From positions 1 to 64,000 of the forward strand of contig NADL03000221.1 in NCBI GenBank assembly GCA_002205965.3: a DNA stretch of 64,000 nucleotides. The letters run 5' to 3'. Under the pieces are notes generated by a model that had not been told where the DNA came from, ran no database searches, and saw only the letters and a program-made list of their open reading frames with translations. This document shows, one piece after another, positions 6,170-41,670 of this stretch. The position numbers and the translations under genes were made by a program. Position 1 is the first letter of the stretch. Each line of letters begins with the position of its first letter. The stretch is from Kappaphycus alvarezii (lineage: Eukaryota > Rhodophyta > Florideophyceae > Gigartinales > Solieriaceae).

Positions 6170-6181
6170 TCACATCCCCCT
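6170..6181 (-). other. Gypsy-1 polypurine tract
   Basis: On the minus strand AGGGGGATGTGA directly precedes the TGTGACGAAT that starts the 3' LTR. Position and base content fit the plus-strand primer. Confidence 0.65.
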
Positions 6182-6485
6182 AAGAAGAAGAATCGCCCCG
6201 ATTCTTGTAGGTCTTCAATATTTCTTGGCAGTTTTGAAGCTCTGTTTCACACAACCAGGAGTTTTCGTGATCTGGTACCCTTTCCATTTGATGAGATATT
6301 TGGTTTTTCTGTTTTGCTTCTTGTGTGCTAATATGGATTCGACTTCGTACTCTATGTGTCCATCCTGCGTTTTTATTGGCGGTGGAGGTGGGAGTTCTCG
6401 TCAAATTCATCTCGGAAGTACGGCTTAAGGAGGCTTGCGTGGAAAGCATTGTGAATTCCCTTATCAATCATTGGCTGGGAAAGAA

Positions 6486-7697
6486 TTAAGCGGTACGTGA
6501 CTCCGTTAATATTTTCCGATATTTCGAAAGATCCACAATACTTGGGTTAAGTTTACGAGATCCAGCGCCATCCTCCAGAGCTAGATTTTTAGTTGAAAGC
6601 CAGACTTTATCACCAACTTTGAACGTCGAAGGCCTCCTACTTTTGTTGACATAAGATGCTGTGGCATCGTTCGACCTCTTTATTTGTTCTTGGGCCCTTT
6701 TCAGTGATTCTCGCATAGCTTTGAGGAAGTTTGCCGCGGCTGGGTTTTCTGTGGCTAGTATGTCCAAAGGAACAGTTTTAGGGTGAATTCCGTAATTGAG
6801 AAAGAATGGGGAGAATGTTGTAGTTGCGTTAATCGAAGAGTTGTAGGCAACTTCAAAGTCGACCAAGTATTTGTCCCATTCGGATTTGTCGAAACTAACG
6901 AAGGAACGAATCATTTCCTCAATCTTTCGGTTCATCACTTCAGATTGCCCATCTGTCTGTGGATGGTATGCAAGAAGGGGATATTTTGGTACATAATAGG
7001 TGGAATAGACTTTTCCAAACTTGCTCATAAAATTGGATCTCTATCGCAAATGATATTTTCCGGGATTCCATGGTTTCTGTATATGTGGTCTTTAAAAAGG
7101 CTGGCAGTTGAAAGAGCATCTAGTTTTGGCTTTGTCGGATAATCCTTATCATTTTTGATAGTCGTTCAACGACCGTGAGTACTCCACCATTTCCGTTCCT
7201 TGATTTGGGAAGTGGTGTTGATGAAATCCATGGTTATGTGCGTCCACTTTGTTTTCGGGGGATCAAGAGGTTGTAAAAAGCCTGCAGGTTTCTGGTTGGC
7301 TTGCTTATCTTTCTGGCAATGACAAGAGCGAACGTACTGAATTACATCAGCCCGCAGGTTTTTCCAGTAAAACTTCGGTGATATTCTATTGATTGTTTTG
7401 GATATTCCCAGTGTCCAGTATTTGGAGTCGAATGGTAGTCATGCAATAACTTGGCTTTAAACGTTCCTTCTGGTATGCAAATTTTCCGTGTCTTAACAAA
7501 AGCGATCCCTTTCTTTGGAAAGGTGCGTTCGGATCTTTGTATTCGTCTTTGAGGCTTTCATCTAGGTTGTAGTCTTTCACAAGCTCTTCGAGTTCGGATG
7601 ATTCAAAAACGGAACAGTAACATTGTTTGATTCCGAAGATGTCTTCATTATTACTTCTTGGAGTAGCCTTTGTTTCGATGGTGGGGTGAGGGTGCAT
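6486..7697 (-). pseudogene. Gypsy-1 integrase
   Basis: The part closest to RNase H (7697-7386) is an N-terminal region with DYNLDESLKDEYKDPNAPF. From 7385 to about 7150 a frame reads RADVIQYVRSCHCQKDKQAN, the end of the HHCC zinc domain with one residue lost from its C-x2-C pair, then ITMDFI carrying the first catalytic Asp. From 7028 to 6486 the core continues (YHPQTDGQSEVMNRKIEEM with the catalytic Glu, then a basic region and KVGDKVWLSTKNL). At least three frame changes and stops break it. The order of motifs is typical of Ty3/gypsy integrase. Confidence 0.85.
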
Positions 7698-7773
7698 TCT
7701 GGGTTGTCTTGAAAGGGAATCGGCAACTATATTTGATTTCCCGGAGATGGTATAATCTTGAAATCAAAGTCAA

Positions 7774-8443
7774 CTAATCTTTCCAACCATATAACCTGTC
7801 TTGTGACAGATTATCTTGTGTCTCGAGGTATCTCAACGGGTAGTGGTCCGAATGAACAGTGAAGAAGTTACCATACAAGTATGCTCTCCACCACTTTAGG
7901 CAGTCGACAATGGCCAATAGCTCTCTTTCGTGGGCTGCATAATTCTGTTCGGCATCATTTAAAGTTCTGGATGCGAAAGCGACTGGCCTTTTCCTTCGCG
8001 GTTCCTTGTTCCAATACAGCACCAATTGCGTATTGGGAAGCATCTGTAGTGACATAGATCGGTAGACTTGAATCGAAATTTCGAAGGACTGGAGCGTTGC
8101 ACAATATTTTCTTCAGGGTTTGAAATGATTTTTCTTGAGTTTCTGTCCAATGAAAACAAACGTTCTTTGTCAACTCGGTAAGTGGTTTCGAAATTAAGGA
8201 ACAACCCTTAATAAACCGTCTATAATAGTTTACGAACCCCAAGAACGACTGAAGATGTTGTTTGTTCCGAGGCAGCGGCCATTCCATGACGGCTTTAATC
8301 TTGTTGGGATCCACAGCAATTCCTTCCTGGCATATAATGTGCCCAAGATACTCAACTTCTTTAACACCAAAGACACACTTTGACAATTTTGCGAATAATT
8401 TCTCCCTTCTAAGGATCTCTAATACTTCAGCGATGTGTTTCAA
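7774..8443 (-). pseudogene. Gypsy-1 RT thumb/connection and RNase H
   Basis: Minus-strand frames read HIAEVLEILRREKLFAKLSK, EVEYLGHIICQEGIAVDP and FLGFVNYYRRFIKG, the standard RT palm-to-thumb and connection motifs. RNase H follows with ASRTLNDAEQNYAAHERELL and FTVHSDHYPLRYL. A frame change near 7990-8030 splits the two parts. The family normally has both in one chain downstream of RT. Confidence 0.88.
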
Positions 8444-8455
8444 ATGTTCTTCCCA

Positions 8456-9100
8456 TGTCCTACTAATATAAGAATGTCATCCAGATATACGATAACAAAA
8501 ACGTCAAGTACATCTTTGAAAATGTCGTTCATTAGACCCATGAAAGTCGCTGGGGCATTTGTCAATCCAAATGGCAATACTAGAAATTCGAAATGTCCAT
8601 ATCTAGTTCTAAATGCCGTGAGGGTATTGAAGATTCATCCAGTCTGATCTGATGATAACCTGACCTCAGATCTATTTTAGAGAAGTACTTTGATCCTTTG
8701 AGCTGATCAAAGATATCGTCTATGCGCGGCAGTGGATAACTGTTCTTTACAGTAGCCGATTGAGTGCTCTGTAATCCACGCACATCCGCAATGAGCTGTC
8801 CCTCTTCGTCACGAAGAGAATTGGAGCCCCCCACGGGCTCTTGCCGGTCTAATGAAATCACTCTCCAGCAGCTCATCTAGCTGCTTGCGAAGCTCCCCAT
8901 TTCTTTGTCCGAAAGACGGTAGAGACCCTTTTTCTGGGCTTCGCTTCTTTTTCTAATTCAATCTTGAAATCATACTTTCGCTTCGGAGGGAGGCCTTTTG
9001 GAAGTCTGCTTGGGAATACATCCTCATACTTGGTAAGTATGTCTTGAATCTCTCCGGAATAGGTTTCCGTAGAATAGGACTTTGAACTTAGGGGTCTCAC
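8456..9100 (-). pseudogene. Gypsy-1 reverse transcriptase, N-terminal and catalytic part
   Basis: Begins in the protease-RT linker (DILTKYEDVFPSRLPKGLPP), then [20 protein letters not shown] and [12 protein letters not shown], with the first catalytic Asp in KIDL. YLDD is read at 8487-8476. Frame changes occur near 8640-8580 and just after YLDD, where bases are missing. Residues at the active site are present but the chain is broken. Confidence 0.87.
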
Positions 9101-9332
9101 AAGTACTGCATACGTCCCATAATTTTTTTCTAAATCAGTGAGTATTGAATTTGCGAGACGAAAGAATTCAATAGCCTTTCATTGGCTTCGATAACGTAAT
9201 TTTCATCCTTGTATTGAATGAAACTTGATTTTCGGTGGTGTCGATAATCGCTTTATGGGCTCCACACCATTCCTTCCCAAGATTGCATCATACCTCTTCA
9301 GGGACTTATGGCGAAGTACAGTGGTTCAAGTG

Positions 9333-9735
9333 TTATTTCTTTATCTGAACGATAACAGGACGCGGTGTTTCCATTAATTTTTGATCAACACCGTTCGCCA
9401 TTTCGGCAAGTTCTTTTGATTCTTCGGTTTTAATCTTATGGTGATCGCAAAATGATTCGCTGAGGAAGTTAACTTCACCGCCGGGGTCGATGAGAATTTT
9501 AGCTGGTCCATTGGAAATAACTCCTTTAACAATAAGAAGTCCCCGGTGGCGGCGTTGGAAGGTTGGGGTCGGTGTGGCCCTAACTAGTTCTTTGGATCTT
9601 ACTGTTGAAAGAATGAGATTTCTTTGATCTAGAACTGAATGCGGACCGTCAATCAGTTCTTCCGGGCTTTTGGGCAGTTCTTTGCTATGTGTCCTTTCTG
9701 TCTGCATCTTAGGCACAGTCCTTCACGCATGCATC
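9333..9735 (-). pseudogene. Gypsy-1 gag zinc knuckle and protease
   Basis: A CCHC knuckle (CLRCRQKGHIAKNC, spacing 2-4-4) is read at about 9715-9674 in one frame. The aspartic protease follows in another frame: GPAKILIDPGGEVNFLSESF. The catalytic triplet reads D-P-G where D-S-G or D-T-G is usual, so activity would be doubtful even in frame. Gag upstream lies in a third frame, so this is decay and not a single programmed shift. Confidence 0.8.
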
Positions 9736-9744
9736 TGTCGCGCT

Positions 9745-10585
9745 CTACCTTATCGAGTTCTGTAGATTCACATTTGATGACTCGACACCAGACTTCACTT
9801 CCACGTTTCCAATTTCCATCGGTACAGGACCATTACTTCCGGCAGATGAACTTCCATTCAGCAATTTTCCACCGGACTTGGTATTTCTCAGGGGTTCTGA
9901 ACGCCTGTACGCCGCTTCCACTCTTTCTGCATCTCCCATAAGATCGGAAAGCTTGGTGTATTCTTTCGTGCATAAGGTTTTCCAAATGTATGGTTTCAGG
10001 CCGCGTGAGTATCGATCTATTTGATCCTTCACTCCAATGTCTGGGATGTCCAATAAGATTTTGTTAAAATCATCATTAAACGTTGGAACGTCCTTGACTT
10101 GTTTCCAGCGAGCAGTTTGTCTCGGGCGATTTTTTCTTTGTTTATCGTCTCAAAACGATTGAGGAGAGCAGTCTTCAATTCCTTCCATGTTTGAATTTCC
10201 TTCCCCTCGGCACTCTTGGAATAGACCATCCACCATTCATGAGCATTTCCCGAAAGATAGCTCAGTGCAATGTTCATAGTTGCTTGCCCATCTGCTTCAC
10301 CAAGGTAATTCTCCATCTGCACGCACCAGCTTCCGACGGACCCTTTCCCACCGAAAGATCCCGGTTTATTCTTCTTGGGGGCGTCCTTTTTTCATTTTGA
10401 CTACTTGAGGTACCAGTATTGATCCTGACGAGAGATAGTTCATTCTCGAGGGCTCCTACCTTCTGAGCAGCATTATTGAGCTGATTCTGCTGCGCGGAGA
10501 TCTGATTATGGGCCTCTGTCAGCTGACGTTGAAGTTCGCTTACAGCTTGTGCGAGAGCCTCTACCGTAATTCCCGGAGTTTCCAT
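9745..10585 (-). pseudogene. Gypsy-1 gag
   Basis: Three overlapping frames. The first starts at ATG 10585 (METPGITVEALAQAVSELQ) with a coiled-coil-like region rich in Gln and Leu (about residues 8-50). The middle reads ALSYLSGNAHEWWMVYSKS, a typical retrotransposon gag motif. The last reads IDRYSRGLKPYIWKTLCT and KLSDLMGDAERVEAAYR. The knuckle follows in another frame. Gag would form the particle; this copy cannot. Confidence 0.85.
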
Positions 10586-11027
10586 GGTATTTTCCTATTG
10601 GTCGATAGAGTCACACGTGTGCTGTTGGTTTTTTCTTACTTTTAAATAGAAGTTTTCCAATTTGTTCGGCAAGAATCGGTCTGCACTGTCCGAGTTGGCA
10701 AGACCAGCAAAACACCAGTGAGAGGTCTCGAGTTCGAATCCCAGTCGATAACTTGGGAAAGTTGATTTTCTCTGACGTAAGGGTTTGACGTCAGTCACGT
10801 CGGGTGTGCTATAGTAGCCCTCCTTCCGATGCTTTACCAAACGGTTGTTTTCCTGTCTAGAACCTGGCGGCGATACGGACTTACAAGTCCTACTGCAAGG
10901 AACTGGGGAAAGCGAGTTTGTAAGGTAGCCACAGCGGGAGGGTGAACACAGCACAAACGGAGTCGGTTGAGAAAGCAACTTTTGTTTTTTTTCCTATTCG
11001 ACAAGGATAGGTTTATTCAAATACAAG
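10586..11027 (-). other. Gypsy-1 leader between zinc-finger ORF and gag
   Basis: About 440 bases with no supported coding sequence. This spacer sits where the Copia elements also have a non-coding leader between zinc-finger ORF and gag. It holds a tRNA-like B box on the plus strand (GAGTTCGAATCCC near 10729) that does not fold into a cloverleaf. Confidence 0.5.
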
Positions 11028-11653
11028 CTACTCAGACTTACGAGCAGTCTCGCGGTGACGACGGCCAAGACGGTGGCGCTCAAGGTCTGCCTTGCTCGGA
11101 ACTTCTATTTTGCAAATATTGCAGGTGTGCCTTGTCTTGTCAGCGCGGTGCTGATGCTTGCGGGAACGGAGATGCTCGAAGTACTGCACGCGGCCTGTGC
11201 AGGTGACTTGACAGTGACGGCAGTGGAAAGGAGACGATCGAGGGTTCTTGGTCATTCGAGGCCTCCTGACAGACTTCCGGATACGATGGTTGGCTGTCCT
11301 TTGGATAACGATAGAGGCGGCGTCAGGAAGAACAGGTAGGCCCTTCTTCGAAATCGTAGGCCTGGTGGTCGGTTTGGCCTTCCTTGATTTGACGGGCCTT
11401 GAGCGGGGGATCTCGGAAGCGCTGGTATCGGTGGAAGGGCCGACGGAAGTGCGAAAGCGGGAGGCAGCGGGGTTCTCGGTTCTTCGATTTCAATCCTAGT
11501 CGGTGTCCTTGGTTCTTGACCGTAACAGAACTTACTTACTTCTCGACAATTTTCCTCGAAAAATCCCTGTAAGTCCTTCTCGGTGTACTCGTCAGGCGAC
11601 GAAGGGCGGTCCCTGAAGTTGTGTTTTTCGGCACTGGGCGTTATCCGGAAGGA
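11028..11653 (-). pseudogene. Gypsy-1 5' ORF: double U1-like C2H2 zinc-finger protein
   Basis: From ATG 11255 to a stop at 11028 an intact 75-residue frame carries two fingers: C12-x2-C15-x12-H28-x5-H34 and C45-x2-C48-x12-H61-x5-H67. This is the U1-like/matrin/JAZ spacing. Upstream the same frame is open back to a TGA near 11491. Another frame, open from 11653, reads IEIEEPRTPLPPAFALPS at 11494-11441, which aligns without gaps to the Copia-1 zinc-finger protein. One frame change near 11440-11400 would therefore join a longer protein. No good ATG is seen for the long form; possible donors (GTAAG) and acceptors lie between 11530 and 11740, so the start may be spliced. JAZ-type pairs often bind double-stranded RNA; any role here is inference. 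Confidence 0.75.
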
Positions 11654-11771
11654 TCAGAGTAAAAACAAAATGTTAGTCTCCACTTGCAATCGGGCAGAAA
11701 GGCAAATCTAATAGAGATTTTAACTTACTGTCGGATTGGAAGAACTCGCAGTACTGACAAACTTTTGGCGA

Positions 11772-11779
11772 TGCTACCA
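11772..11779 (-). other. Gypsy-1 primer-binding site
   Basis: TGGTAGCA lies two bases inside the 5' LTR on the minus strand. It is complementary to the last 8 bases of animal initiator tRNA-Met (ending TGCTACCA). The match stops after 8 bases, so the tRNA assignment is tentative. Confidence 0.55.
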
Positions 11780-11781
11780 GA

Positions 11782-12285
11782 TGTGGGGGTTTGGGCGCAC
11801 AAGAGGTAATCGATGGTTGAACTGATGGTTGAAGCTTCCGGTGAACAGACCGGAGCTTCTGACCATGGTTTATATAGAGAAGAATTCAACGAGAGTGACA
11901 ATGAATGGTAAAAACAATACTAAATTCAAAGGTATTCTAGAAGAACAGGCCTAGGGGCGTAATACTACAAGGTTTGAGAGTTCACCTAGTATATTGCGGT
12001 GAGACTGACAATATTGCCCATCATGGCAGAGTTCCATTGATCCACTTGGCGAGACAGCACAAAGCACTTGCTGATTGGTCTTGCCTTGAAAGTATCTAGG
12101 GTACGCCAGGTATCCATAATGGCTTCGTCTGATTGGTCTGTGGTATTGCGTTGCGTCGGTGCCAGATTACAGTACATTAGTTGCGCTGATGTCTCCTTAC
12201 AGTGCTTATGTTGCACTGGTGCCTCTCTGCGGTGCTCATGCCGTTTGAAGGCTACTATTGGGATACTACTGGCATATTCGTCACA
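11782..12285 (-). repeat. Gypsy-1 5' LTR
   Basis: Pairs with 5661-6169. On the minus strand it starts TGTGACGAAT and ends CCCCCACA. Confidence 0.93.
11869..11876 (-). promoter_or_regulatory. TATA box of the Gypsy-1 5' LTR
   Basis: TATATAAA on the minus strand. About 10 bases downstream begins an inverted repeat (GAAGCTCCGG ... CCGGAAGCTTC), which would form a hairpin at or near the 5' end of the transcript. Confidence 0.6.
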
Positions 12286-13357
12286 AGCAAAGAGTAGAAA
12301 CCTTTGGTGCAGTGGTGTACACATACTGTACTGGTGTCAAGTTTCGTATTGAAACTCGTACTGTGCTTCTTACTGTTACCTCGTACTGTACTTCTTACTG
12401 CACTTGAGTTCGTACAGTAGGAGTTGGTTATGAAAATACTATCATGGCTACACCGCTCCGGTCTCTCCAGGTACAGTAGAATGCCTGCTGTATCCGCCGG
12501 CTGCATCCAAAATCAGTTTTGTGATTCTATAATACGTATGAGGTTTCTAGTTATGATTATGGTTAGTCCGGCTGCATCCGAAATCAGTTATGTGATTACC
12601 ATACGTATGAGGTTTGATGATTACGGTTTGCCGGCTGCATCCAAATCAGCTATGTGATTCTATAATACGTATGAGGTTTCTAATTATGATTACGGGTTAT
12701 CCGGCTGCATCCAAAATCAGTTGTGTGATTCTATAACACGTATGAGGTTTCTATTATGATTACGGTTTGCGGCTGCATCCAAAATCAGTTATGTGATTCT
12801 ACCATACGTATGAGGTTTCTGATTATGATTACGGTTTGCCGGCTGCATCCAAAATCAGCTATGTGATTCTATAATACGTATGAGGTTTCTAATTATGATT
12901 ACGGTTATCGGCTGCATCCAAAATCAGTTGTGTGATTCTATAACACGTATGAGTTTTCTGATTATGATTACGGTTTGCCGGCTGCATCCAAAATCAGTTG
13001 TGTGATTCCATAGATATGACGGGTTGAGTCCGTTATCTTGGCACAAAGAATTCGTTCGGATGAGTTTACAAAATAAGGTGCTGTATTGATGTGTGTATTT
13101 GGCCAAACTGTCTTACACGAGTTTGAGAACTTTGGAAGCAGTTCTAAAAATGCCCCAATTGAACGTTATTACTGGGCCAATATGTTTCAATCTGTCCAAA
13201 TGGTTCAGTTTCTATGTTTTTGTTAATGGACGCAGTGTTAGAGAGTAGTTGCAGGTTGTACTTAAGGTCAGAATTTTAGGTACCGAGTAAATTCTGGGTA
13301 GCCAAGCCCGCGCTTATCCTCTCTCCCACCAAACTTCCCCATCGCAACTCATCTTCA
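12286..13357 (+). repeat. Copia-2 5' LTR, right part
   Basis: Continues the LTR interrupted at 5660. It contains GTACTGTAC-type repeats (12310-12420) and eight units of a ~68-bp minisatellite (about 12490-13015), each with TGCATCCAAAATCAG and an ACGTATGA core. It ends ATCTTCA directly before the tRNA-binding site. Total LTR length without Gypsy-1 is about 1.57 kb. Confidence 0.88.
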
Positions 13358-13371
13358 GGCTATGGGCCCAG
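13358..13371 (+). other. Copia-2 primer-binding site
   Basis: GGCTATGGGCCCAG directly follows the LTR. It differs by one base from the Copia-1 site GGTTATGGGCCCAG, which pairs with the anticodon arm of initiator tRNA-Met. Confidence 0.75.
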
Positions 13372-13454
13372 TTCAACGCTATCTCTCTCTTTGATTCCCG
13401 TAAGTCGCCCTGTGTCGTTGTCCTGTTTCGTTTTGTTTGTCTCAGCTTGTTGAT

Positions 13455-14115
13455 ATGTCTCACGTTTCTGGTAAGTTATTTGAATAATTCCATTTCTTTG
13501 CACATCGAAGTGATTCTCTTTGCACCTTTTGGCTGGTCTAAAGACTTGTAATTCCATAAAGCTGTTACTGACGATCACTTCCACTATCTGTGCCTGCTTC
13601 TGCGGGTTGTGCTAGACTCGGAATTAGCCCTGGTGCCGCGAGAAACCCAGGGCTCCATCGGTCAGAGGTTTACCGTCAAGGAGGAGGAGGTGTGGAGAGG
13701 ATCGAGGTTATTGAAACCGACAACACCACCGCCGCCGACGCTCGCCCTTCCTGCCGCCCAGGAAGGATATAGGACCCCCGCAAGTCAGTACTCCACAGAA
13801 GCCGATTAGAAAAATTCAACGACTCTCGGCCAAGAAAGCCAAAGCGCTTGCCGATCGAGTCGCGAAGAGGGAGCTGAAGGCGAAGAAGCGAGTTCCGCCG
13901 AGGCACAAGAGGTACTGCAAGACCTGCCCGATTAGCTGCAATAGTGCTAAGACATTCTACGATCACGTACATTCTAAGGGTCATAATAGTAGAGTAGCCA
14001 ACAAAAAGGAGACCCCTAGGTGTACTGTTTGTGATAGAGTGTTCGACTCCACGAAGTTCTGAAACGCCACGAGAACGGGAAAGATCACTTGACAGTATTT
14101 TTGTCTCAGCAGTAA
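13455..14115 (+). pseudogene. Copia-2 5' ORF: double zinc-finger protein, broken
   Basis: Homologous to the intact ORF of copy A. A predicted first exon (13455-13470, ATG then four codons and one base) joins across a 145-base GT-AG intron to 13616, in frame with DSELALVPR. A proline-rich stretch (PPPPTLALP) follows, then a stop near 13808 after a small deletion. The frame resumes with a Lys/Arg-rich region and finger 1 (CKTCPISCNSAKTFYDHVHS, then KGH). Finger 2 keeps C-x2-C but is cut off by a frame change at 14055. Confidence 0.75.
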
Positions 14116-14277
14116 AAGGGATCCTATACTTTGGTTAAAGCGAGTGCTCGGCCTTTGCATTTAGCTTAGAGTTTCGTGTGCTGTGTTCTTATAGAGGTGG
14201 GCTTGCCATTGCAAGGGACTATCGGTCCCCGGTTTGGGATTTTCGAACAGAACACGAGCATCTCTAATCTATTTGCA

Positions 14278-14563
14278 ATGAGTAGCGGAGAAGATCAAGG
14301 AGGAGGGTCAATGAAGATAGAGAAGCTGACGGATACGAATTTTTATGTGTGGAAGCAGAAAATACAGCTACTTTTGGCACTGCGAGATGTAGAACAGTAC
14401 ATAACAGATGATACCGTCCCTGCTGATGAAAATTCTTCACGTACAGGACATGGAAGCAGGGAGATCGAAAAGCCAGAGCAATCATAGGGCTGTCTCTTTC
14501 TGATGTCCATTTGGACCATGTAAGAGATGCTGTTACTGCCAAGGGTATTGTGGGATGCTATTC
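14278..14563 (+). pseudogene. Copia-2 first gag module, Copia-1-like fragment
   Basis: ATG at 14278 starts MSSGEDQGGGSMKIEKLTD and continues very close to Copia-1 gag (FYVWKQKIQLLLALRDVEQY) for about 280 bases. It breaks near 14430 and ends at 14563, where a short piece of Copia-1 LTR begins. A second, different gag follows at 14752, so this is a duplicated, truncated gag N-terminus. Confidence 0.8.
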
Positions 14564-14584
14564 TGTTGTTGATTTGGCAAGACG
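14564..14584 (+). repeat. 21-base copy of the Copia-1 LTR start
   Basis: These 21 bases equal the first 21 bases of the copy A 3' LTR (24948-24968), beginning TGTTGTTGATTTGG. They sit between the truncated first gag and the Copia-2 leader. Confidence 0.75.
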
Positions 14585-14638
14585 TGTCTTTGAGTAAACG
14601 CTGCAAACTTCGTATAGGGAAAAGGCTTGCCGTGACAA

Positions 14639-14653
14639 GCGACTATCGGTCGC
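14639..14653 (+). ncRNA. Leader hairpin before second Copia-2 gag (covariant form)
   Basis: GCGAC-TATCG-GTCGC: a 5-bp stem with a 5-base loop, about 100 bases before the gag ATG. The equivalent Copia-1 hairpin is GGGAC-TATCG-GTCCC. The second base pair is swapped from G-C to C-G and the loop is unchanged. Confidence 0.6.
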
Positions 14654-14751
14654 CGGCTTGGGATACCCGAACAGAGGACTTTGTATACTCACTGCATACG
14701 TGGTAATAGAGGTTTCAGACACAAAGGGTCTTGGATAAAAAAAACATAGTC

Positions 14752-15480
14752 ATGGACGATCGCGGAGGCGGAGTTCGAATTGAAAAGCTCACTAACAATA
14801 ATTTCCATGTTTGGAAGCAGAAGGTGCAGCTTCTTCTCGCTCTCCGGGAGCTTGATGACTACATTGTGGATGATCCGCCTGAGGAATCGGATGATAGGGC
14901 TCTCAAATCATGGACTCGGGCCGACCGCAAAGCACGGGCGCTCATCGGGTTGTCCCTTTCTGATGAGCACCTTGAGCATGTCCATACTCCGCAACTGCAA
15001 AGGAGATGTGGACTATTATTCTCAACAAGTTTGGAGAGGCACACACTCCTCAATAAACTTGCGGCTCGACGCCGGTTTTACACCGCGGCTATGGATGGTA
15101 ATGAGAGAGTTCTGCAGTACGTTAACCGTGTATAACACAGTTGGCAGCGACCCTGAAATCCATGGATGTGACTATCGATGACAAGAGATAGCCATGGCTG
15201 TGCTTAACGGATTGCCACCCCGTTTTGAAAATCTCATCGTTGCCTTGGATGCGCTCGACAATGAGGACAGGTTGTTTACTTTGGAATTTGTGAAGAGCCG
15301 GTTGTTGCAGGAAGAGGAGCGTGCTCAAATGAGAAGTCAAAGGGACAAAATCTAATTGCTGGCTCATATCCAATGCCCGTCCGAATGACTACGGAGGTAA
15401 TGCAAGACAGCTGCACTGTACGAACTGCGGTCATTCTGCGGTCACACCGCGGACAGGTGCTGGGGCAAAGATGTGAACGG
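14752..15480 (+). pseudogene. Copia-2 gag
   Basis: ATG at 14752 gives MDDRGGGVRIEKLTNNNFHV, then QLLLALRELDDYIVDD, RADRKARALIGLSLSDEHLE and HTLLNKLAARRRFYTAAMDG: a Copia gag about two thirds identical in these motifs to copy A. Frame changes occur near 14990, 15125 and 15350. The CCHC knuckle near 15418-15475 keeps C-x2-C-G-H but is split before its last Cys. This is the family's own gag, as opposed to the Copia-1-like piece upstream. Confidence 0.8.
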
Positions 15481-15589
15481 TAGGGCGCCCGGAAGCTCCA
15501 AGGGCTATCGTGCATCCGGTTCTCGTAGTGCCAGAGCATCTAATAATCATCGAAACGAGAAAAATCGCCCCAGAGGAGATCAGAAGGCG

Positions 15590-16917
15590 TTCGTAGGTGC
15601 AAATGTATTTGATTCGACTGATTCTCATCCTTCAGCTGATAGTGGGCCATCGTTGATGATGAAATTGTTTGCCTCATGTCACGAATTAAACAGGCCGGGA
15701 TTTCGGCCGGAACTTCCTCCTGGTACGCAGATTCCGCATGTACTTCCCATATGACTTACGATAGGAGTGTTTTCACGAATTATACCGAATTTTCTGCAGC
15801 CTCAGTCGAAATGGGAACTAAAGCCCGGGCTAAGATTGGTGGGCGAGGTGACGTGGAGCTCACATTATTAGTAGATGGTTCTCGAAAGCGGTGTATTCTG
15901 CGAGATGTTGTCCACGTTCCTAGTTTCGAATACTCTCTCATATCTGTAGGCAAAGCGGACATAGAAGGGATCAAAACTGTATTTGAGAACAAAGCTTTGC
16001 AGATGACTAAGAATGGGAGAGTTGTAGCAACTGGAAAAATGCTGTGCAATAGCCTTCTTTATGCTATCGACATAGTCCAGAAGATACCAAATGATACCTT
16101 GTACTCTGCGAAAGTCATCACACTCTCGACATGTCACGAGAGAATGGCTCATGTAAGCAAGCAGGGCATTGAATCTATGGTAAGGAACAATGTTGTGGAC
16201 GGCGTGCAGATCAGTGGCTCGAAGACATCCGAAATATGCTCCTCATGCGTTCATGGAAAGGCTCATCGTTCTGCAGTGCCGAAGAAACGCACGACTGGTA
16301 GAGCTGAAGCGATGTTAGACCTTGTTCACAGTGACGTGTGTGGACCTATGGAGGTTTCTTCTGTTGGAGGTGCACGATACTTTGTGACCTTCACGGACGA
16401 TCACTCTTCCTGGGTTACCGTCTACATGATGCGGCGAAAGTCAGAGGTCTTTGATAAATATAAACTGTTCCAAGCTCGTAGCGAAGCCCATACTGGGCGT
16501 CGCATTGGCATTCTTCGTTCAGATCAAGGGGAGAATATATGTCCACTGCATTCAAAGACTACCTTGCCGAGCGCGGCACAAAACATGAGCTTAGTGCAGT
16601 GGAGTCACCTGAACAGAATGGTGTTTCAGAGCGGCTGAACCGAACACTTCTGGATCTGGTTCGATCTATGCTACATGCAAAGAGTCTGCCAAAACAGTTC
16701 TGGGCCGAAGCTCTGGCGACTGCTGTATACATCCGAAACAGAGTTACAACTCGGTCAATTCCAAGCCACACAACCCCGCATCATATATGGTACGGTCGCA
16801 AGCCCAATTTGTCGCACCTTCGTACGTTCGGAAGCAAATGTTGGTACACCGTCCCAGCAAGTCAGTTGACTAAGCTTGACAACCGAGCACGGGAAGCAAT
16901 TATGCTTGGATATGCGG
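15590..16917 (+). pseudogene. Copia-2 protease and integrase
   Basis: From about 15676 a 320-residue frame reads protease (WYADSACTSHMT, where D-S-A replaces the usual D-S-G), the pre-integrase zinc region (CHERMAHV, then CSSCVHGKAH) and the integrase core (LVHSDVCGPMEVSS with Asp 1, GILRSDQGE with Asp 2). A frame change near 16535 leads to SPEQNGVSERLNRTLLDLVR with the catalytic Glu. It stops being collinear at 16917 (LGYAE), where the coding sequence jumps to the end of RT. Confidence 0.83.
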
Positions 16918-17747
16918 AAAAGGTCGTCCAAGCTAGTCTGTATATCGCAGAAGGCGTATGCCGAATCCGTACTGAAACGTTTTGGAATGTTCAGTTGTAA
17001 TTACGTGACTACACCAATGGAACAGGGATTCCACCCCGAGTCTTCAACAAGCCCGTACTGCGATGTCCCGTATCGACAGATCATCGGCTGTCTGATGTTC
17101 CTGATGGTTGGTTCTCGTCCAGAGTTAGCCTACGCCGTTGGAAAAATGTCTCAACACTGTGAGAAGCCTCGCGAGGACCACTGGCAGGCCGCGAAAAGGG
17201 TTTTGAGGTTCATCAAATGAAAACTCTCAACTGGTGTAGTCCTAAACGGAAATCTCTCAGTGGGTACCTCGAAGGCTTTAGTGATGCGGACTGGGTGGCT
17301 GCTTGAACTCAAGAAAGTCCACCAGCGGCTATGTCTTCAAGCTTTGTGGTGGAGCCGTCAGCTGGTCGTCGAGGAGGCAAACGGTTGTTGCAAAGTCTAC
17401 CTGCGAAGCAGAGTACATCGCGCTTTGTGATGCCTGCAAAGAAGCCGCCTGGCTAAGATGACTTCTGGCAGATGCATTGGGAAAATCAGAAGATGGTACT
17501 GTTACAATCGGCTGTGATAATACAGGAACAATATATTCTTTGCAGGCAACGAGGGGGTCAACCGGCGTAACAAGCATATCGATATCTCATACCACTTTGT
17601 CAGAGTGCTATCCATCGCAATATCGTTTCCCTCTTCCGTGTACCGTCTTCCGAAATGCCAGCAGATATACTAACGAAGCCTCTTGGACGACTTTCGTTCA
17701 ATAAATGTGTGAGGTTTCTGGGACTTGGCGATCTGCGCGATGCTTAG
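16918..17747 (+). pseudogene. Copia-2 RT C-terminus and RNase H
   Basis: After the deletion junction near 16917 the frame reads KLVCISQKAYAESVLKRFGM, CDVPYRQIIGCLMFLMVGSR and KPREDHWQAAKRVLRFIK, which lie after the RT active site in intact copies. The YVDD core, roughly 1.2 kb in copy A, is absent. RNase H follows in pieces ([20 protein letters not shown] in shifted frames, [18 protein letters not shown]), with several frame changes before a TAG at 17745. Confidence 0.82.
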
Positions 17748-17756
17748 GGCATGTGA

Positions 17757-17766
17757 TCGAGGGGGG
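17757..17766 (+). other. Copia-2 polypurine tract
   Basis: ATCGAGGGGGG (17756-17766) lies directly before TGTTGGTG, the start of the 3' LTR. Confidence 0.75.
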
Positions 17767-18480
17767 TGTTGGTGATTTTGTGAGACGATCACACACCCAT
17801 CGCCTTGACTAGACGTCTCGCACGGAGGTTGGGAAGCTGTATATCTGTACACGTGGACAAATGTGGTTCTGAAGGATAATATATGCCAAATTTACCCGAA
17901 AAACAAAGTTGCCGGGACGAAAAGCCATTTTCGAGGGGTCGACGATAAATGCAAATTTTGCATAATTGTTGACAAGTGGAACTTGGCCCATAATGCCTAG
18001 GCTAAGAATTGCCTGCTTTAATCCTATTGGCTGATAGGTCAAATGCTGCAATTCTATTGGCTGGTGATGTACACGTGTAATGGCTGTAGAGGTGTAAGGG
18101 TTGACTTTGAGCTATTTTAGAGGGCAGAATGGTGTTTATGGGGTCATTTTACATAGGGTAGGGCACTGTAAGTGGGTGAGGAGTATACTGTATAAGAGGT
18201 ATGTCGAGGTAAGGTATGTACACGTGTACGTGGTGGCAGTTGTGTATGTGATGTACACGTGGTACAGCAAAGAGTAGAAACCTTTGGTGCAGTGGTGTAC
18301 ACATACTGTACTGGTGTCAAGTTTCGTACTGTACCTCGTACTGTGCTCCTTACTGTACCTCGTACTGTACTTCTTACTGCACTTGAGTTCGTACAGTGGG
18401 AGTTGGTTATGAAAATACTATCATGGCTGCACCGCTCCGGTCTCTCCAGGTACAGTAGAATGCCTGCTGTATCCGCCGGC
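17767..18480 (+). repeat. Copia-2 3' LTR, truncated
   Basis: Matches 5161-5660 plus 12291-12500 continuously, so it preserves the Gypsy-1 empty site. It ends at GTATCCGCCGGC, just before the minisatellite, where the copy A LTR begins. Confidence 0.9.
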
Positions 18481-18760
18481 TGTTGTTGATTTTGCAAGAC
18501 GATCACATGACCCCACATCGGTGCCAAATCTCATAAGAGGCATGAGGCATGTTCCACGTGTACACATGCACACGTGTTGAATGAAGGACGGCCCTAAGGC
18601 ATTCCGGAAGAAATCCAGAGTTCCCAGGGACGAAAGTACGATCTTGAGAGATCAGCGATTTAGAGGGCAAAATGTTGTTTATGGGGCGATTTTACGTAGG
18701 GTAGGGTACTATAAGTGGATGATGAGTATACTGTATGATAGATATGCTGAGGAAAGCTAT

Positions 18761-18772
18761 GTACACGTGTAC
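18761..18772. promoter_or_regulatory. GTACACGTGTAC palindrome with CACGTG core
   Basis: A perfect 12-base palindrome. A second CACGTG (in GTACACGTGGTAC) lies about 33 bases downstream, and CCACGTG plus CACACGTG lie near 18553-18577. CACGTG is the E-box/G-box core bound by bHLH and bZIP factors. A role as an LTR enhancer is inference. Confidence 0.4.
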
Positions 18773-18989
18773 GTGGTGGCAGTTGTGTATGTGATGTACA
18801 CGTGGTACAGCTAAGAGTAGAAACTTTTTGTGCAGTGTTGTACACGTACTGTACTAGTGCCAAATGAGGAACTGTACTTCGCACTGTACATCGTAATATA
18901 CCAAGTACTGTACTCCTTACTGTACTTGGTTTGTACAGTAGGAATCAATTATGGCAATACTGTCATGACTCCTAGAAAGAGGTATTTGA

Positions 18990-19560
18990 TTTTATATTAC
19001 GTATGAGGTTTCTAGTTATGATTACGGGTTTATCCAGCTGCATCCAAAAATCGGTTATGTGATTTCATCATACGTATGAGGTTTCTAGTTATGATATTGG
19101 TTTGTACAACTGCATCCAAAAATCAGTTATGTGATTCATCATACGTATGAGGTTTCTAGTTATGATTGGTTTTACACTGCATCCAAAAATCAGTTATGTG
19201 ATTCATCATACGTATGAGGTTTCTAGTTATGATATTGGTTTGTACAACTGCATCCAAAAATCAGTTATGTGATTCCATCATACGTATGAGGTTTCTAGTT
19301 ATGGATTGTACACTGCATCCAAAAATCAGTTATGTGATTCCATCATACGTATGTGGTTTCTAGTTTGATATGGTTTGTACAACTGCATCCAAAAATCAGT
19401 TATGTGATTCCATCATGTATGTGGTTCTATTATGATGAAGATTGGACAACTGCATCCAAAAATCAGTTATGTGATTCCATCATATGTATGAGGTTCGTAA
19501 TTATGATGAAGATTGGACCGACTGCATCCAAAAATCAGTTATGTGATTCTATTTTACGTA
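18990..19560 (+). repeat. LTR minisatellite, ~68-72-bp unit, 8 copies
   Basis: Each unit has TGCATCCAAAAATCAG, TTATGTGATTCC, CATACGTATGAGG (with a palindrome) and TCTAGTTATGAT. The 3' LTR of the same element (about 25490-25975) has 7 units, so the number changes between LTRs. Confidence 0.88.
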
Positions 19561-19906
19561 TGACGGATTGAGTCCGTTATTTTGGCACAAGGGAATTCGT
19601 TTCCGGTAAGTCTGCAAAATAAGGTACTGTATTGATGTGTGTATTGGGCCAACCTATTTACACAAATTTGTCAACTTTGGAAGCAGTTCCAAATTTGCCC
19701 CTAATGACTGTTATCACCGGGCCAAGATCTTGAAATCCGCTCAAATGGCTCAGTTTGTGGGATTCTGTTAGTGGACGCAGTGAGTTAGAAAGTAGTTGTA
19801 GGTTGTACTTAAGGCCAGGATTTTAGAGTTCCGAGTAAATTCTGGGTAGCCAAGCCCGCAACTTCATCCGTCCAGCAAAGTCCTTCACCCTCTCCGATTC
19901 CCATTA

Positions 19907-19920
19907 GGTTATGGGCCCAG
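19907..19920 (+). other. Copy A primer-binding site (initiator tRNA-Met anticodon arm)
   Basis: GGTTATGGGCCCAG directly follows the LTR. It is the exact complement of CUGGGCCCAUAACC in the anticodon arm of animal initiator tRNA-Met, as in Drosophila copia, which is primed by a cleaved half tRNA. The plant version of the arm would pair with one base fewer at the end. The site is repeated unchanged in copies B-F. Confidence 0.85.
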
Positions 19921-20002
19921 TTCAACGCCGTCTCTTTCTCTGAACCCCGTAAGTCGCCGTGTGTTGCTGCATTGTTTTCTTGTCTATCTCAGTCTCTTGA
20001 TT

Positions 20003-20668
20003 ATGTCTACTCGTTCCGGTAAGCTATTTGAATAATTCCATTTCTTTGCACATCGAAGTGATTCTCTTTGCACCTTTTGGTTGGTCTAAAGACTCATAAT
20101 CCCAAAAGCTGTTACTGACGATCACTTCCACTTTTGTGCCTGCTTTTGCGGGGTTGTGCTAGACTCGGAATTAGCCCTGGTGCCCCGAGTGCCCAGGGCT
20201 GCGACAGTTAGGACTTTGCCATCTGTGGGGAGGACAGTTGTGGAATCGATCGAAGTACTCGAACCAGAAGGACCGCCGCCGAAGACGCTCGCGCTTCCCT
20301 CGTCTAGGGAAAGGTATAGGATCCCTCGTAAGTCAGTACCTCTGGATAAGCCAATAAAGAAAGTTCAACGCCTCTCGGCAAAGAAAGCTAAAGCCCTCGC
20401 CGATCGAGTTGCCAAGAAGGAACTAAAGGCTAAACGAAGAGTTCCGCCGAGGAACAAGAGGTACTGCAAGCTCTGTGATATTAGCTGCAATAGCGCACAG
20501 ACATTCTACGATCACATCAATTCTAAGGGTCATAGGACTAGAGAGAAAAACAAGAAAAAGACCCCTAGGTGTACTGCTTGTGATAGAGTGTTCGATTCCC
20601 ACGAGGTTCTCAAGCGTCACGAGAACGGGAAGGAACACTTGAAAGTAGTTTTGTCCCAGAGAATTTAA
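20003..20668 (+). CDS. Copia-1 5' ORF, copy A: double U1-like C2H2 zinc-finger protein (spliced)
   Basis: Predicted join of 20003-20018 and 20163-20668, 173 residues. ATG plus four codons end at a GTAAGC donor; the acceptor TGCTAG at 20162 restores frame into DSELALVPRV. Residues 26-52 are acidic and proline-rich (IEVLEPEGPPPKTLALPS). Residues 66-105 are Lys/Arg-rich and could serve nuclear entry or nucleic acid binding. Finger 1: C107, C110, H123, H129. Finger 2: C142, C145, H158, H164. Both are C-x2-C-x12-H-x5-H, the U1-like/JAZ type. It lies between the tRNA site and gag, outside the usual copia gene set. The frame is also intact in copy C. Function is unknown; regulation of splicing, export or packaging of element RNA is possible. 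Confidence 0.8.
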
Positions 20669-20766
20669 AGAGATCCATTTGTTTGTTTGAAGCGACGTCT
20701 TTGGCCTTTGCTTTAGTCTAGAGTTTCGTGTGCTGTGTTCTTATAGAGGTGGGCTTGCCACTACAA

Positions 20767-20781
20767 GGGACTATCGGTCCC
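20767..20781 (+). ncRNA. Leader hairpin before Copia-1 gag
   Basis: GGGAC-TATCG-GTCCC about 50 bases before the gag ATG, inside a well-kept leader (CTTGCC...CAAG just upstream is a possible second stem). It is kept in copies A, B, C and E; D and F lost bases in the 3' arm. The Copia-2 version changes both arms together. Confidence 0.55.
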
Positions 20782-20828
20782 CGGCTTGGGATCTTCGAAC
20801 AGAACATTAGCACCTCTAGAATATTGCA

Positions 20829-23800
20829 ATGAGTAGCGGAGAAGATCAAGGAGGAGGATCGATGAAGATCGAAAAGCTCACGGATACCAATTTCTACGTG
20901 TGGAAACAGAAGATTCAGCTCCTGTTGGCCCTTCGCGATGTGGAACAGTATATTACTGATGGCACCGTTCCTGAAGATGAACAATCTTCCACTTACAAGG
21001 CATGGAAGCAAGGGGATCGAAAGGCCCGGGCCATCATCGGCCTGTCGCTGTCCGATGATCACCTGGATCATGTGAGAGATGCTGTCACAGCCAAAGAAAT
21101 GTGGGACGCCATCTTGGAAGTTTTTGAGCGCCACACATTACTAAATAAGCTGGCGGCCCGGAGAGACTTCTACACGGTCACCATGCTAGACAATGAGAAA
21201 GTTTTGCCATACATAGGACGTGTGCGACACCTAGCAGCTCGCTTAAAGTCAATGGGAGTCATCATTGATGACAAGGAAATGGCTATGGCAGTTCTCAATG
21301 GTCTTCCGCAGAGGTTTCAAAATCTCATTGTAGCGCTTGACGCTCTTGGATCCGAAGATAACACGTTCGGAGTAGAATATGTAAAAAGTCGCCTGCTCCA
21401 AGAGGAGCAACGTGCATCGATGAGCTTACTAGAAGGCAGAATCCGCCAAGGTCTGCTCTTATTGGGCACATCCCTGAGGCAAGGCGTGTTTCGACTTTGA
21501 CATGCACCAACTGTGGTCACAATGGACACTCCGCTGCCCGCTGCTGGGGAAAGGACATCAACGGAAGGCGACCACCGCCACCTGACCGGTTCCTACGTAG
21601 ACAGTCACAGAAGCCTACTGCGATGATTGCTCAAGAGCAAGAAGATCTGGAAATTAATGAAGTCGAGTACATATGTCTGATGAACAAGGTAGATAACTCT
21701 GGTATCAACATAACCTCAAACACTTGGCTTATCGACTCTGGATGCTCCGCGCACATGACATTTGACAAGAGACTGTTCTCCGACTACAGGGAGGTCTCAA
21801 ACAGCCGCGTAGAAATGGGAACAAAAGCGTGTGCAGTAGTAGCTGGAGTCGGGACCGTCCCCATTACGCTTTTAGTGACGGAGTTCAAAAGTCATGCAAG
21901 CTCACCAATGTGCTGCACGTTCCAAGCTTTGCTTTTTCCCTAATTCTGTACGTAAGATGGTCGATAATGGATTTGACGTTGAGTTCGTTCGTGACAAGTG
22001 CACTGTGAAGAGGAGTGACTGCATCGTGGCTACTGCCACAAGTCGAGGAGAGCTGTATGTGCTTGACACATGTAACGAGGTTCATTCGGCGCACAAAGCC
22101 TCTTTGAAGACATGGCATGAAAGATTGGCCACGTTCACACTCAAGGAATATTGTCCATGGCTCGTAAGAACGTGGTAAGTGGACTTCATATCTCCTCTTC
22201 AGATATAACAAGAGACGCTAGCTCATCTTCTGACTGTGAATCTGTGACATGTGATGCGTGTGTGTTAGGAAAAGCAACTCGTGCTGTGATTCCTAAACAG
22301 CGCTCTGGAGGCAGGGCCAAACATTTGCTAGACTTGGTCCATTCGGACGTCTGCGGCCCACTCCAAGTACAGTCAGTAGGTGGTGCTAGATACTTTGTCA
22401 CTTTTATCGATGACCACTCAAACTGGAGTGTTGTCTATCCGATGAAGAGTAAAGATGAAACGTTCCATTTTTATCAGAAGTTTGCCCAATATGCCTTCAC
22501 ACACACTGGTCAACGCGTGAAAGTGCTTCGATCTGATCGTGGTGGAGAGTATCTTTCTTCAGAGTTCCAATCCTTTCTATCGTCACAAGGAACTGTTCAT
22601 CAAACGACCGCTGCATACACACCTGAACAGAATGGTGTGGCAGAACGGCTCAATCGTACCCTGATTGATCTCGTCAGGTCTATGCTGTCCCATATGAAGG
22701 TTCCGAAAGCTTTCTGGGCTGAAGCTCTTGATAACGCAGTTTACGTTCGCAATCGTGTCACGACAAGAGCTTTGGGTGGTCTCGTTACTCCATTTCACCT
22801 ATGGATGAAGAAAAAGCCCGATGTATCTCACCTACGTGTGTTTGGATGTCAATGCTGGTACAAGGTGCCTGGTAATGAGGTGCGTAAACTTGACGACCGC
22901 GCAACAACGGGAATGTTTGTTGGGTATCCGCCGGGAACTAAGGCCTACAAAATTTGGGATGACAATTTACATCGCATTGTTATTTCCAGGGATGTGCAGT
23001 TCGATGAGTCGAGACCAGGGGCTTGCTCTTACGATGAACATTTTTCCGATGATAATGACGTGGACGTTGACCCAGTGGAGGCGACCGATACTGACGAAAT
23101 TGAGTCTGAAACATCTAATGGTGATAATGAACATGGCATTGAAACAGGGTCACCGGCGGAGGTTGAGAACTTTCAAAGTCAAGGTATTGAGCCCGACTCA
23201 ACTAATGAGACTTTGCAACCAGAAGAAGTGAGTGGTGAGCAAGATGCTGGTCCCGGCGATGTGGAACCTCGCCGCTCCACTCGTTCACGACGCCCACCCC
23301 GACAGTGGTGGACAGGCCTGGTGGGAACCAGCTTACTCACACCTTCCTGTGGCGACATCAACATACCGAACTCCTTTAAAGAGGCGATGGGTGGACCACA
23401 ACCACAGTTCTGGCAGAAAGCGATTGATAAGGAGCTAGAGTCCCAACGCAAAAACAAAACCTGGGCACTAGTTCCACGATCGGAAGGTGCCAATATTCTA
23501 ACTTCTCGCTGGGTATTTACTGTAAAGGACATGCCGGACGATAACGGCACGTTGACTCAAAAGGGAAAAGGTCGCCTGGTTGTGCGGGGCTTTCAACAAA
23601 TTGAGGGGATTGATTACTCAGAGACTTTTGCGCCGGTGATCAAATTTACAACGATTCGATTGTTGTTGGCGATTGTAGCCCACTTCGATTTAGAGCTTCA
23701 TCAAATGGACGTGGTCACGGCCTTTCTGAACGGTGACTTAGAAGAGGATATTTATATGGAGCAGCCTGAAGGTATCGTTGACTCTTCCAGGCCCAATCAT

Positions 23801-24928
23801 GTTTGCAAACTTCTCAAGGCTATCTATGGTCTTAAGCAAGCGAGTCGACAATGGCACAAAAAGATTGACGATTTCCTTATTCACACGCTTGGCTTCAAGA
23901 CTACGAGAAGTGACGCCTGTCTATATACAAACATATCAGAAAAAGGCGTTATGCTGATTGCCCTATATGTGGATGACTTGCTTCTTGCGGGAAGTGACCT
24001 GAAAGCCGTGACCTGGATGAAAGGTGAACTGAACAAGAGATTTGAGATGAAAGATTTAGGCGAGGCCAAAAAGTGCATTGGGCTTGAAATAAGTAGAAAA
24101 AGGGTCCCTAGACGGATCTATATCTCGCAGACAGAGTATGCCAAGTCCATTTTGAAACGTTTTGGTATGGCCAGTTGCAATCCCGTGAGGACTCCGATGG
24201 AACAAGGATTACACCCTGAGATGTCAACTAGCCCGTATTGCGATGTACCATATCGACAGATCATTGGCTGCTTAATGTTTCTTATGGTAGGGTCACGTCC
24301 AGATCTTGCATATGTGGTGGGAAAACTGTCCCAACACTGTGAGAACCCTCGCGAGGACCACTGGCAAGCAGCCAAACGAGTTCTGAGATATATCAAAGGA
24401 ACGCTCTCACTAGGTGTAATTCTAGATGGAAATCTCCCAGTGCAAACTCTAGAGGGCTTCAGCGATGCAGACTGGGGTGGTTGCTTGGACTCGAGAAAGT
24501 CCACCAGTGGATATGTGTTCAAACTGTGTGGGGGAGCTATTAGTTGGTCATCTAGGAGACAAACGGTCGTTGCGAAATCCACATGCGAAGCGGAGTATAT
24601 TGCACTGTGTGAGGCTTGCAAAGAGGCAGCTTGGCTCAGGTGCCTTCTTGCAGACGCATTGGGAAAGTCGAAAGACAGCACAGTTACAATCGGGTGTGAT
24701 AATGCTGGTACAATAGCGTTTGCGGGTAACGAAGGAGTGAACAGGCGAAATAAGCACATTGACATATCATATCATTTTGTCCGAGATGCTGTGACTCGAA
24801 AGATTGTTTCACTGTTTCACGTACCTTCTACAGATATGCCAGCAGATATACTCACCAAGCCTCTTGGTCGCATTCAATTCATACAATGCATAAAATCTCT
24901 AGGCCTCGGAGAGCTGCACGATGCTTAG
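20829..24928 (+). pseudogene. Copy A gag-pol
   Basis: Gag from ATG 20829 (MSSGEDQGGG, WKQKIQLLLALRD, HTLLNKLAARRDFYTV). Frame is lost near 21425 where an A is missing, returns for the knuckle and protease (CTNCGHNGHSAARC, WLIDSGCSAHMT; 21497-21870), is lost again near 21880 and 21945, and once more near 22125. From 22151 to the TAG at 24926 one open frame covers integrase, RT (YVDD at 23966) and RNase H (SDADWGG near 24460). In family members gag and pol share one frame. This copy cannot make the whole chain. Confidence 0.9.
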
Positions 24929-24939
24929 GTCATGTAATC

Positions 24940-24947
24940 GAGGGGGG
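24940..24947 (+). other. Copy A polypurine tract
   Basis: GAGGGGGG directly before the TGTTGTTG of the 3' LTR; the same tract adjoins the LTRs of copies B-G. Confidence 0.78.
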
Positions 24948-35106: not shown

Positions 35107-35266
35107 TGCAATATTCTAGAGGTGCTAATGTTCTGTTCGAAGATCCCAAGCCGGGGACCGATAGTCCCTTGTAGTGGCAAGCCCACCTCTATAAGAACAC
35201 AGCACACGAAACTCTAGACTAAAGCAAAGGCCAAAGACGTCGCTTCAAACAAACAAATGGATCTCT

Positions 35267-41532: not shown

Positions 41533-41670
41533 TGCAATATTCTAGAGGTGCTAATGTTCTGTTCGAAGATCCCAAGCCGGGGACCGATAGTCCCTTGTAG
41601 TGGCAAGCCCACCTCTATAAGAACACAGCACACGAAACTCTAGACTAAAGCAAAGGCCAAAGACGTCGCT

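Follow-up and report, generated by a model that had tools for sequence, protein, structure and literature searches.

An apparently homologous zinc-finger reading frame ahead of gag in Ty1/copia and Ty3/gypsy retrotransposons of Kappaphycus alvarezii, with nearly ATG-free leaders

The first 64,000 nucleotides of contig NADL03000221.1 of the red alga Kappaphycus alvarezii (assembly GCA_002205965.3; this whole stretch is called the window below) consist, in the part studied here, of retrotransposons. Three of them, the related elements Copia-1 and Copia-2 and the element Gypsy-1, carry a short open reading frame (ORF), here called ORF1, ahead of gag. What copia and gypsy elements have in common is mainly their basic replication scheme, their gene order and sequence being different; comparison of the sequences supports the homology of the Copia and the Gypsy ORF1, which would place one gene in two superfamilies. 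We consider it probable that the overall picture is that of homologous pre-gag genes, expressed from one transcript with gag by means of splicing and leaky scanning, whose product is an RNA-related protein.

The ORF1 product is, in both types, a basic protein about 170-205 residues long, in which a proline-rich EP..PPP..LALP..IPR motif is followed by a basic region and by two C2H2 zinc fingers of the JAZ/zf-met type. Its parts are located in the window as follows (LTR, long terminal repeat; Copia-1a is the plus-strand copy of Copia-1).

19907..19924, plus strand: sequence adjoining the LTR end of Copia-1a, which we take to resemble the copia primer site
20163..20668, plus strand: main part of Copia ORF1, with fingers at about 20462-20533 and 20567-20638
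13455..14115, plus strand: ORF1 of Copia-2, frame-broken
11252..11653, minus strand: frame with the N-terminal motif of Gypsy ORF1
11028..11489, minus strand: frame with the two fingers of Gypsy ORF1 (about 11228-11154 and 11129-11055) and a conserved in-frame ATG at 11255

The two C-x2-C-x12-H-x5-H fingers that an earlier note on this DNA had placed in Copia-1 and Gypsy-1 can be read from the sequence at those positions, and in each of Copia-1, Copia-2 and Gypsy-1 the gene lies, as that note had claimed, between a sequence resembling a primer site and gag. Its description of ORF1 as a single continuous frame over the intervals then proposed fits none of the three. The ATG at 20003 of Copia-1 starts a frame of 10 codons and the finger frame opens at 20090, and the fingers of Gypsy-1 (11489-11028) are out of frame with its N-terminal motif (11653-11252). 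The Pfam families suggested for the fingers are confirmed in Copia-1, which is above the cut-offs of both zf-C2H2_jaz (53.4 bits) and zf-met (42.2 bits); Gypsy-1 is recognized by zf-met (47.6 bits) but not by zf-C2H2_jaz (20.5 against a cut-off of 22.6), and the piece from Copia-2 falls slightly below the cut-offs of both, because its frame is broken inside finger 2.

The resemblance between the two types extends beyond the fingers. It had been proposed from an alignment of 18 residues of Copia-1 and Gypsy-1, of which 10 are indeed identical (counted by eye), and it is borne out by profile-profile comparison: over their whole length, the Copia and Gypsy ORF1 profiles align with E 1e-14 and a probability of 98.4% (fingers alone, E 1.7e-12), and the N-terminal parts alone, taken from alignments cut before finger 1, score 27.2 (E 4e-4), a value that none of 200 column shuffles attained (their maximum being 18.9), and 10.2 was obtained for the reversed control. 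Protein searches covered 5.8 billion proteins and returned 44; Copia ORF1 found 13 proteins, the window's own among them, and Gypsy ORF1 found 10. With a joint ORF1 profile, 8000 candidates were scored and 36 proteins had E values of 10 or less. All of them are ORF1-like except P0044 (E 3.6) and the fragment P0043 (E 9e-4); one, P0040, represents a third type, in which LPPIPRLALPPP is combined with two fingers, and scores 52.9 and 27.2 bits under the two ORF1 profiles. The metagenome proteins are labelled Copia-type or Gypsy-type by similarity to the ORFs of the window, since they came without gag-pol context. Copia-type proteins score up to 40.8 bits with the Gypsy profile and Gypsy-type proteins up to 55.3 bits with the Copia profile, the best PDB chains, used as a yardstick, reaching 20.9 bits with the former profile and 17.5 bits with the latter. 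Searches of PDB sequences with ORF1 gave nothing beyond weak generic fingers, and no ORF1 relatives were found in IMG/VR and GTDB contigs. Unrelated proteins that match better than the sister ORF1, which according to the earlier note would have spoken against homology, were not found in these searches, limited as they are by shared words and by the content of the PDB. In a tree of 34 of the returned proteins, 23 Copia-type and 10 Gypsy-type members are separated by one branch (99/98) with long stems, which imply that their common ancestor is old.

ORF1 is widespread in the genome to which the window belongs (336 Mb, 884 contigs). All 150 candidates scored for Copia ORF1 match (2380 at a loose first look), as do all 150 scored for Gypsy ORF1 (1906 at a loose first look), and the gene is present in all six window Copia-1 copies that hold this region. 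Absence from other Gypsy-1 copies, the other outcome that would have counted against the earlier note, was likewise not observed. The thirty best-matching Gypsy loci, the window copy included, were fetched, and 28 are readable, i.e. have both fingers without a stop; gag follows ORF1 in 27 of the 28. The motif and the fingers share one frame of 204-208 amino acids in 16 of the 28, so that the frame break of Gypsy-1 is a feature of the window copy. A frame change as the normal structure of the Gypsy-1 gene was also considered and is ruled out by these one-frame copies. In Copia, gag follows ORF1 in 8/8 fetched loci. The ratio of nonsynonymous to synonymous substitution rates between ORF1 of Copia-1 and Copia-2, over 161 codons (those with gaps or stops excluded; the values for gag are saturated), is 0.21 (NG86) or 0.35 (YN00), which shows purifying selection on ORF1, measured in Copia only.

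The leaders that contain ORF1 are almost devoid of ATG.

20006..20828, plus strand: ATG-free run of Copia-1, 823 nt, ending at the gag ATG at 20829
13458..14277, plus strand: ATG-free run of Copia-2, 820 nt, ending at a gag-like ATG at 14278
10586..11863, minus strand: Gypsy leader, ending at the gag ATG (10585), in which a lone ATG at 11255 separates ATG-free runs of 608 and 667 nt
35107..35928, minus strand: ATG-free leader with ORF1 in another Copia-1 copy; further ones at 41533-42354, 47519-48337, 53961-54782 and 59943-60716

Beyond the ORF1 AUG, and as far as that of gag, no ATG in any frame is present in Copia-1 (20005-20828) or Copia-2 (13458-14277); shuffled versions have on average 8.4 and 9.1, and zero was reached in 0 of 2000 shuffles of each. 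Ranked by length over both strands, the top nine ATG-free runs of the window are the seven Copia leader runs (823, 822, 822, 822, 820, 819 and 774 nt, the Copia-1 copies not being independent of each other) and the two Gypsy leader runs (667 and 608 nt), followed at a distance by a run of 397 nt. In all eight fetched Copia loci, such a run, 822-823 nt long, again separates the start codons of ORF1 and gag. At the protein level, the 23 full-length Copia-type proteins (P0001, the window's own, included) have no internal Met, against 91 expected at the gag-pol rate, and the wider set of 32 Copia-type entries has five, all in P0038, P0039 and P0042, which are broken or cut. The ten Gypsy-type proteins have ten internal Met, nine of which share a single conserved column ahead of the fingers. 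In the readable Gypsy loci, the roughly 600 nt before the in-frame ATG hold no other ATG in 27/28, an ATG inside the fingers occurs in 1/28, and the first ATG after ORF1 is that of gag in 25/28. The start contexts, read from the sequence, agree with leaky scanning: that of the Copia ORF1 AUG is moderate, that of the Gypsy in-frame AUG weak, and that of the Gypsy gag AUG optimal. We infer that the ATG-free leaders are a signature of leaky scanning via ORF1 to gag; such an ATG desert is simple enough to be used in the search for hidden pre-gag genes in other genomes.

In Gypsy, the start codon of ORF1 itself appears to be assembled by splicing.

11634..11728, minus strand: Gypsy leader intron (GTAAGT..CTAAC..CAG); the ORF1 start codon consists of A (11729) and TG (11633, 11632)

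Most one-frame Gypsy copies of ORF1 start with GTG-CC rather than ATG, preceded by CAG. The donor (GACA/GTAAGT) and acceptor are found as a pair in 27 of the 30 Gypsy loci, bordering an intron of 93-97 bp with a CTAAC-like branch site 41-45 bases upstream of the acceptor, and splicing would join A and TG into the start codon; one donor exon among the loci ends in GAAA, and the intron form was not matched in loci L016 and L017. A genome-wide search for the spliced junction gave three matches, L012, L040 and L041 (the reversed-pattern control gave one). L012 is without exactly the intron stretch, the primer region and the ORF1 start both being there, and its frame from the joined ATG breaks after 127 amino acids; L040, a diverged member, is intronless, with a frame of 196 amino acids and the next ATG 1000 nt on. 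L041, examined as a further intronless copy, is an unrelated match. L012 and L040 are the product expected from reverse transcription of spliced RNA, and such natural intronless copies make the splicing switch directly testable.

The Copia leader has a different arrangement.

20003..20018, plus strand: proposed first exon of Copia ORF1, which holds the sole ATG between the primer site and gag
20019..20162, plus strand: Copia leader intron (predicted), or else a conserved stretch of structured RNA
20726..20828, plus strand: conserved block with a hairpin directly before gag, 90% identical between Copia-1 and Copia-2

Removal of the predicted intron would link the ORF1 AUG to the finger frame. 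Its GT..AG borders are present in 7/7 window copies and 8/8 fetched loci, its identity between Copia-1 and Copia-2 is 95%, compared with 75-83% in the coding parts, and it folds well (z -3.4). The stretch may contain a packaging or export signal, which would also account for the absence of spliced copies; alternatively, it may not be an intron. The hairpin of the pre-gag block reads GGGAC..GTCCC in Copia-1 (20764-20784) and Copia-2 (14212-14232), and GCGAC..GTCGC in a third leader (14636-14656), a difference of one compensatory pair.

We propose that ORF1 and gag would be carried by one LTR transcript. In Gypsy, splicing of the leader intron would create the ORF1 AUG, and the unspliced RNA would serve gag; in Copia, the unspliced RNA already has the ORF1 AUG, and removal of the predicted intron would open the finger frame. 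Some ribosomes would initiate at ORF1, and the remainder would scan on to the gag AUG, which the near absence of AUG from the preceding 820-1,270 nt would allow them to reach. Leaky scanning via AUG-free ORFs has been demonstrated for rice tungro bacilliform virus (RTBV), according to the available text of PMC5902531. The favoured task of the protein would be the binding of the element's structured RNA, of double-stranded RNA or of an RNA-DNA hybrid, in the nucleus or in the particle, with protection from silencing as a second choice; double-stranded RNA-binding fingers are linked to nuclear localization of JAZ by the title of a paper cited in PMC5966945. The same pre-gag slot and a similar AUG-poor design in both superfamilies hint at a shared need, perhaps for RNA handling or against host silencing.

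Several points weigh against this account, both in its homology part and in its expression part. The N-terminal similarity is short and its HHalign probability just 34%. The cross-scores are uneven: only 18 of the 23 full-length Copia-type and 8 of the 10 Gypsy-type proteins exceed the best PDB score, and P0044, a finger protein that is apparently unrelated, reaches 24.9 bits with the Gypsy profile, above 8 of the 23 Copia-type proteins. The first and the last of these values would suit convergence, in which unrelated C2H2 ORFs of similar make-up came to look alike, fingers doing so readily and the likeness outside them stemming from Pro-rich composition. We regard convergence as distinctly improbable: the column shuffles preserve composition, yet none scored as high as the real N-terminal parts, the order of motif, basic region and fingers is identical in both types, and a third family, P0040, is matched by both profiles.

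As regards expression, an in-frame ATG lies 33 nt before finger 1 in 28/28 readable Gypsy loci. The complete lack of out-of-frame ATGs would arise from synonymous codon choice with P 0.11 (the gene's own usage) or 0.013 (gag-pol usage), so that the absent Met codons account for much of the AUG effect. One window Copia-1 copy has an extra ATG within the predicted intron, many of the fetched loci are near-identical, so that counts over them are not independent, and no intronless Copia copy was found in the genome junction search, which allowed up to 2 mismatches. The last result fits a weaker rival to leaky scanning, which we find unlikely, namely that internal ribosome entry at the conserved pre-gag block serves gag and that Copia ORF1 is intronless and starts at a non-AUG codon. 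The 90% conservation of that block between Copia-1 and Copia-2 and the single compensatory pair by which the hairpin of the third leader (at 14641) differs speak for it, and a non-AUG start has a precedent in ORF I of RTBV, which begins at AUU (PMC5902531, in the text available). Internal entry requires no AUG-free leader, yet the limits of the Copia run coincide exactly with the ORF1 AUG and the gag AUG; besides, the predicted folds of the block are merely 0.5-1.6 standard deviations better than those of shuffles, and no such block was noticed by eye in Gypsy.

Homologous ORF1s in both superfamilies point to cross-superfamily gene flow or to parallel capture, the two alternatives named in the earlier note. 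Tentatively, we envisage an old exchange between Ty1/copia and Ty3/gypsy, perhaps involving the third family represented by P0040, of a mobile cassette made up of an RNA-binding two-finger gene and its leader for splicing and leaky scanning, which would now be found in many copies of both. A somewhat unlikely alternative is that the copia and the gypsy lineage each captured the gene from one host family of JAZ/zf-met proteins, in which case the AUG-poor leader would have evolved twice, because ribosomes must pass any pre-gag ORF. The split of the ORF1 types by one branch with long stems agrees with two captures, as does the frequency of JAZ-type fingers, which are common host domains. Against two captures stands the N-terminal motif, which is common to both types as well, and no clear host family emerged from the candidates scored with the joint profile, a search limited by shared words.

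The assignment of Copia-1 and Gypsy-1 to different superfamilies, on which the argument of the earlier note depended, agrees with Pfam.

18481..26316, plus strand: Copia-1a, with 5' LTR at about 18481-19906 and 3' LTR at about 24948-26316, from self-comparison with ends read from the sequence
5661..12285, minus strand: Gypsy-1, with LTRs at about 11782-12285 and 5661-6169, splitting the 5' LTR of Copia-2; AGCAA flanks it on both sides

Copia-1 is a Ty1/copia element, with rve at residues 71-167 followed by RVT_2 at 444-693, and Retrotran_gag_2 matches the copy at 34171-35115. Gypsy-1 is a Ty3/gypsy chromovirus, in which reverse transcriptase and RNase H precede integrase and a chromodomain ends pol; on the minus strand, RVT_1 matches a piece at 8583-8876 (26.8 bits, below its cut-off of 29.6), RT_RNaseH_2 lies in 7958-8476, Integrase_H2C2 in 7169-7438 and Chromo in 6218-6400 (31.8 against a cut-off of 25.1). 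Its LTRs, with ends read from the sequence, are 97.8% identical. Copia-2 stands before Copia-1a, and the five further Copia-1 copies with ORF1 are all on the minus strand. ORF1 copies of Copia-1 are regularly spaced, by about 6.0-6.4 kb at 30040-61835 (minus strand) and by about 6.3 or 4 kb on contigs C489, C199, C293 and C867, which suggests tandem LTR-sharing arrays or an assembly effect. At 14555-14760 of Copia-2, a Copia-1-like gag start is followed by about 20 nt resembling an LTR start; a pre-gag block then recurs, together with another gag that is more divergent, so that this region looks like a recombinant of two elements. The Copia LTRs contain minisatellites (12497-13012 and 18998-19563; units of about 67-70 bp in 7.5-8.1 copies). 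Between Gypsy ORF1 and gag there is a tRNA-like stretch (10680-10765, plus strand; ggtctcgagttcgaatccc), perhaps a short interspersed nuclear element in opposite orientation; ARAGORN found no tRNA, and Rfam gave no match at gathering score in the window, the three matches with E up to 5 in 13300-20900 all being far under gathering. Copia pol matched four remote plasmid records; two small ones, labelled as plasmids of Kitasatospora and Streptomyces (NZ_CP115454.1, NZ_CP115302.1), contain a copia-like pol that aligns with 95% of the query, from Copia-1, at 37% identity and may stem from eukaryotic contamination. No relative of Copia pol or gag was found in IMG/VR.

As to the statement of the earlier note that no standard copia or gypsy element with such a gene is known, extra pre-gag ORFs are already in print (PMC3485330, PMC2533021), as are accessory ORFs common to unlike retroelements (PMC5408684). 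In a literature search, outside which most subscription papers lie, nothing was found that describes a C2H2 ORF ahead of gag, a pre-gag gene common to the two superfamilies, or, for any LTR retrotransposon, a pre-gag ORF free of AUG. The terms "zinc finger" and "leaky" do not occur in the accessible part of a review of additional ORFs in plant elements (PMC7264820), and those of PMC9289625, PMC2774666, PMC6431247, PMC2806351 and PMC8220671 hold nothing resembling ORF1.

By finger type, as judged by Pfam, ORF1 resembles JAZ (ZNF346) and zf-met proteins, from which it differs by having two fingers and a Pro-rich N-terminal motif. By position, it can be likened to ORF0 of the rice elements Retrosat2, RIRE3 and RIRE8, which lies between the 5' LTR and gag-pol of gypsy-type elements and for which the available text of PMC3485330 mentions no zinc-finger match. 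The Ogre-type element Mtr70, compared by its description in excerpts of PMC2533021, also combines an extra ORF upstream of GAG with an intron; that intron lies in POL and the ORF has 1527 bp, whereas the Gypsy element studied here has a leader intron and a chromodomain. Bdelloid LTR retrotransposons and Penelope-like elements provide a parallel for one accessory ORF type in very unlike retroelements, for which exchange was favoured over host capture (PMC5408684, as far as its text was available); those ORFs are of enzyme, env-like or coiled-coil types and are placed as ORF3, whereas the finger gene described here precedes gag. The closest parallel in design is RTBV, a retroelement RNA with small AUG-free ORFs over about 900 nt ahead of a gag-pol-like ORF (PMC5902531, in its accessible part). 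An upstream ORF and spacer that are both AUG-free, as in RTBV, are found in Copia-1 and Copia-2, and with one in-frame ATG in Gypsy. Unlike in RTBV, the elements described here, known from sequence alone, are LTR retrotransposons, their ORF1 encodes zinc fingers, and the ORF1 AUG of Gypsy would be made by splicing.

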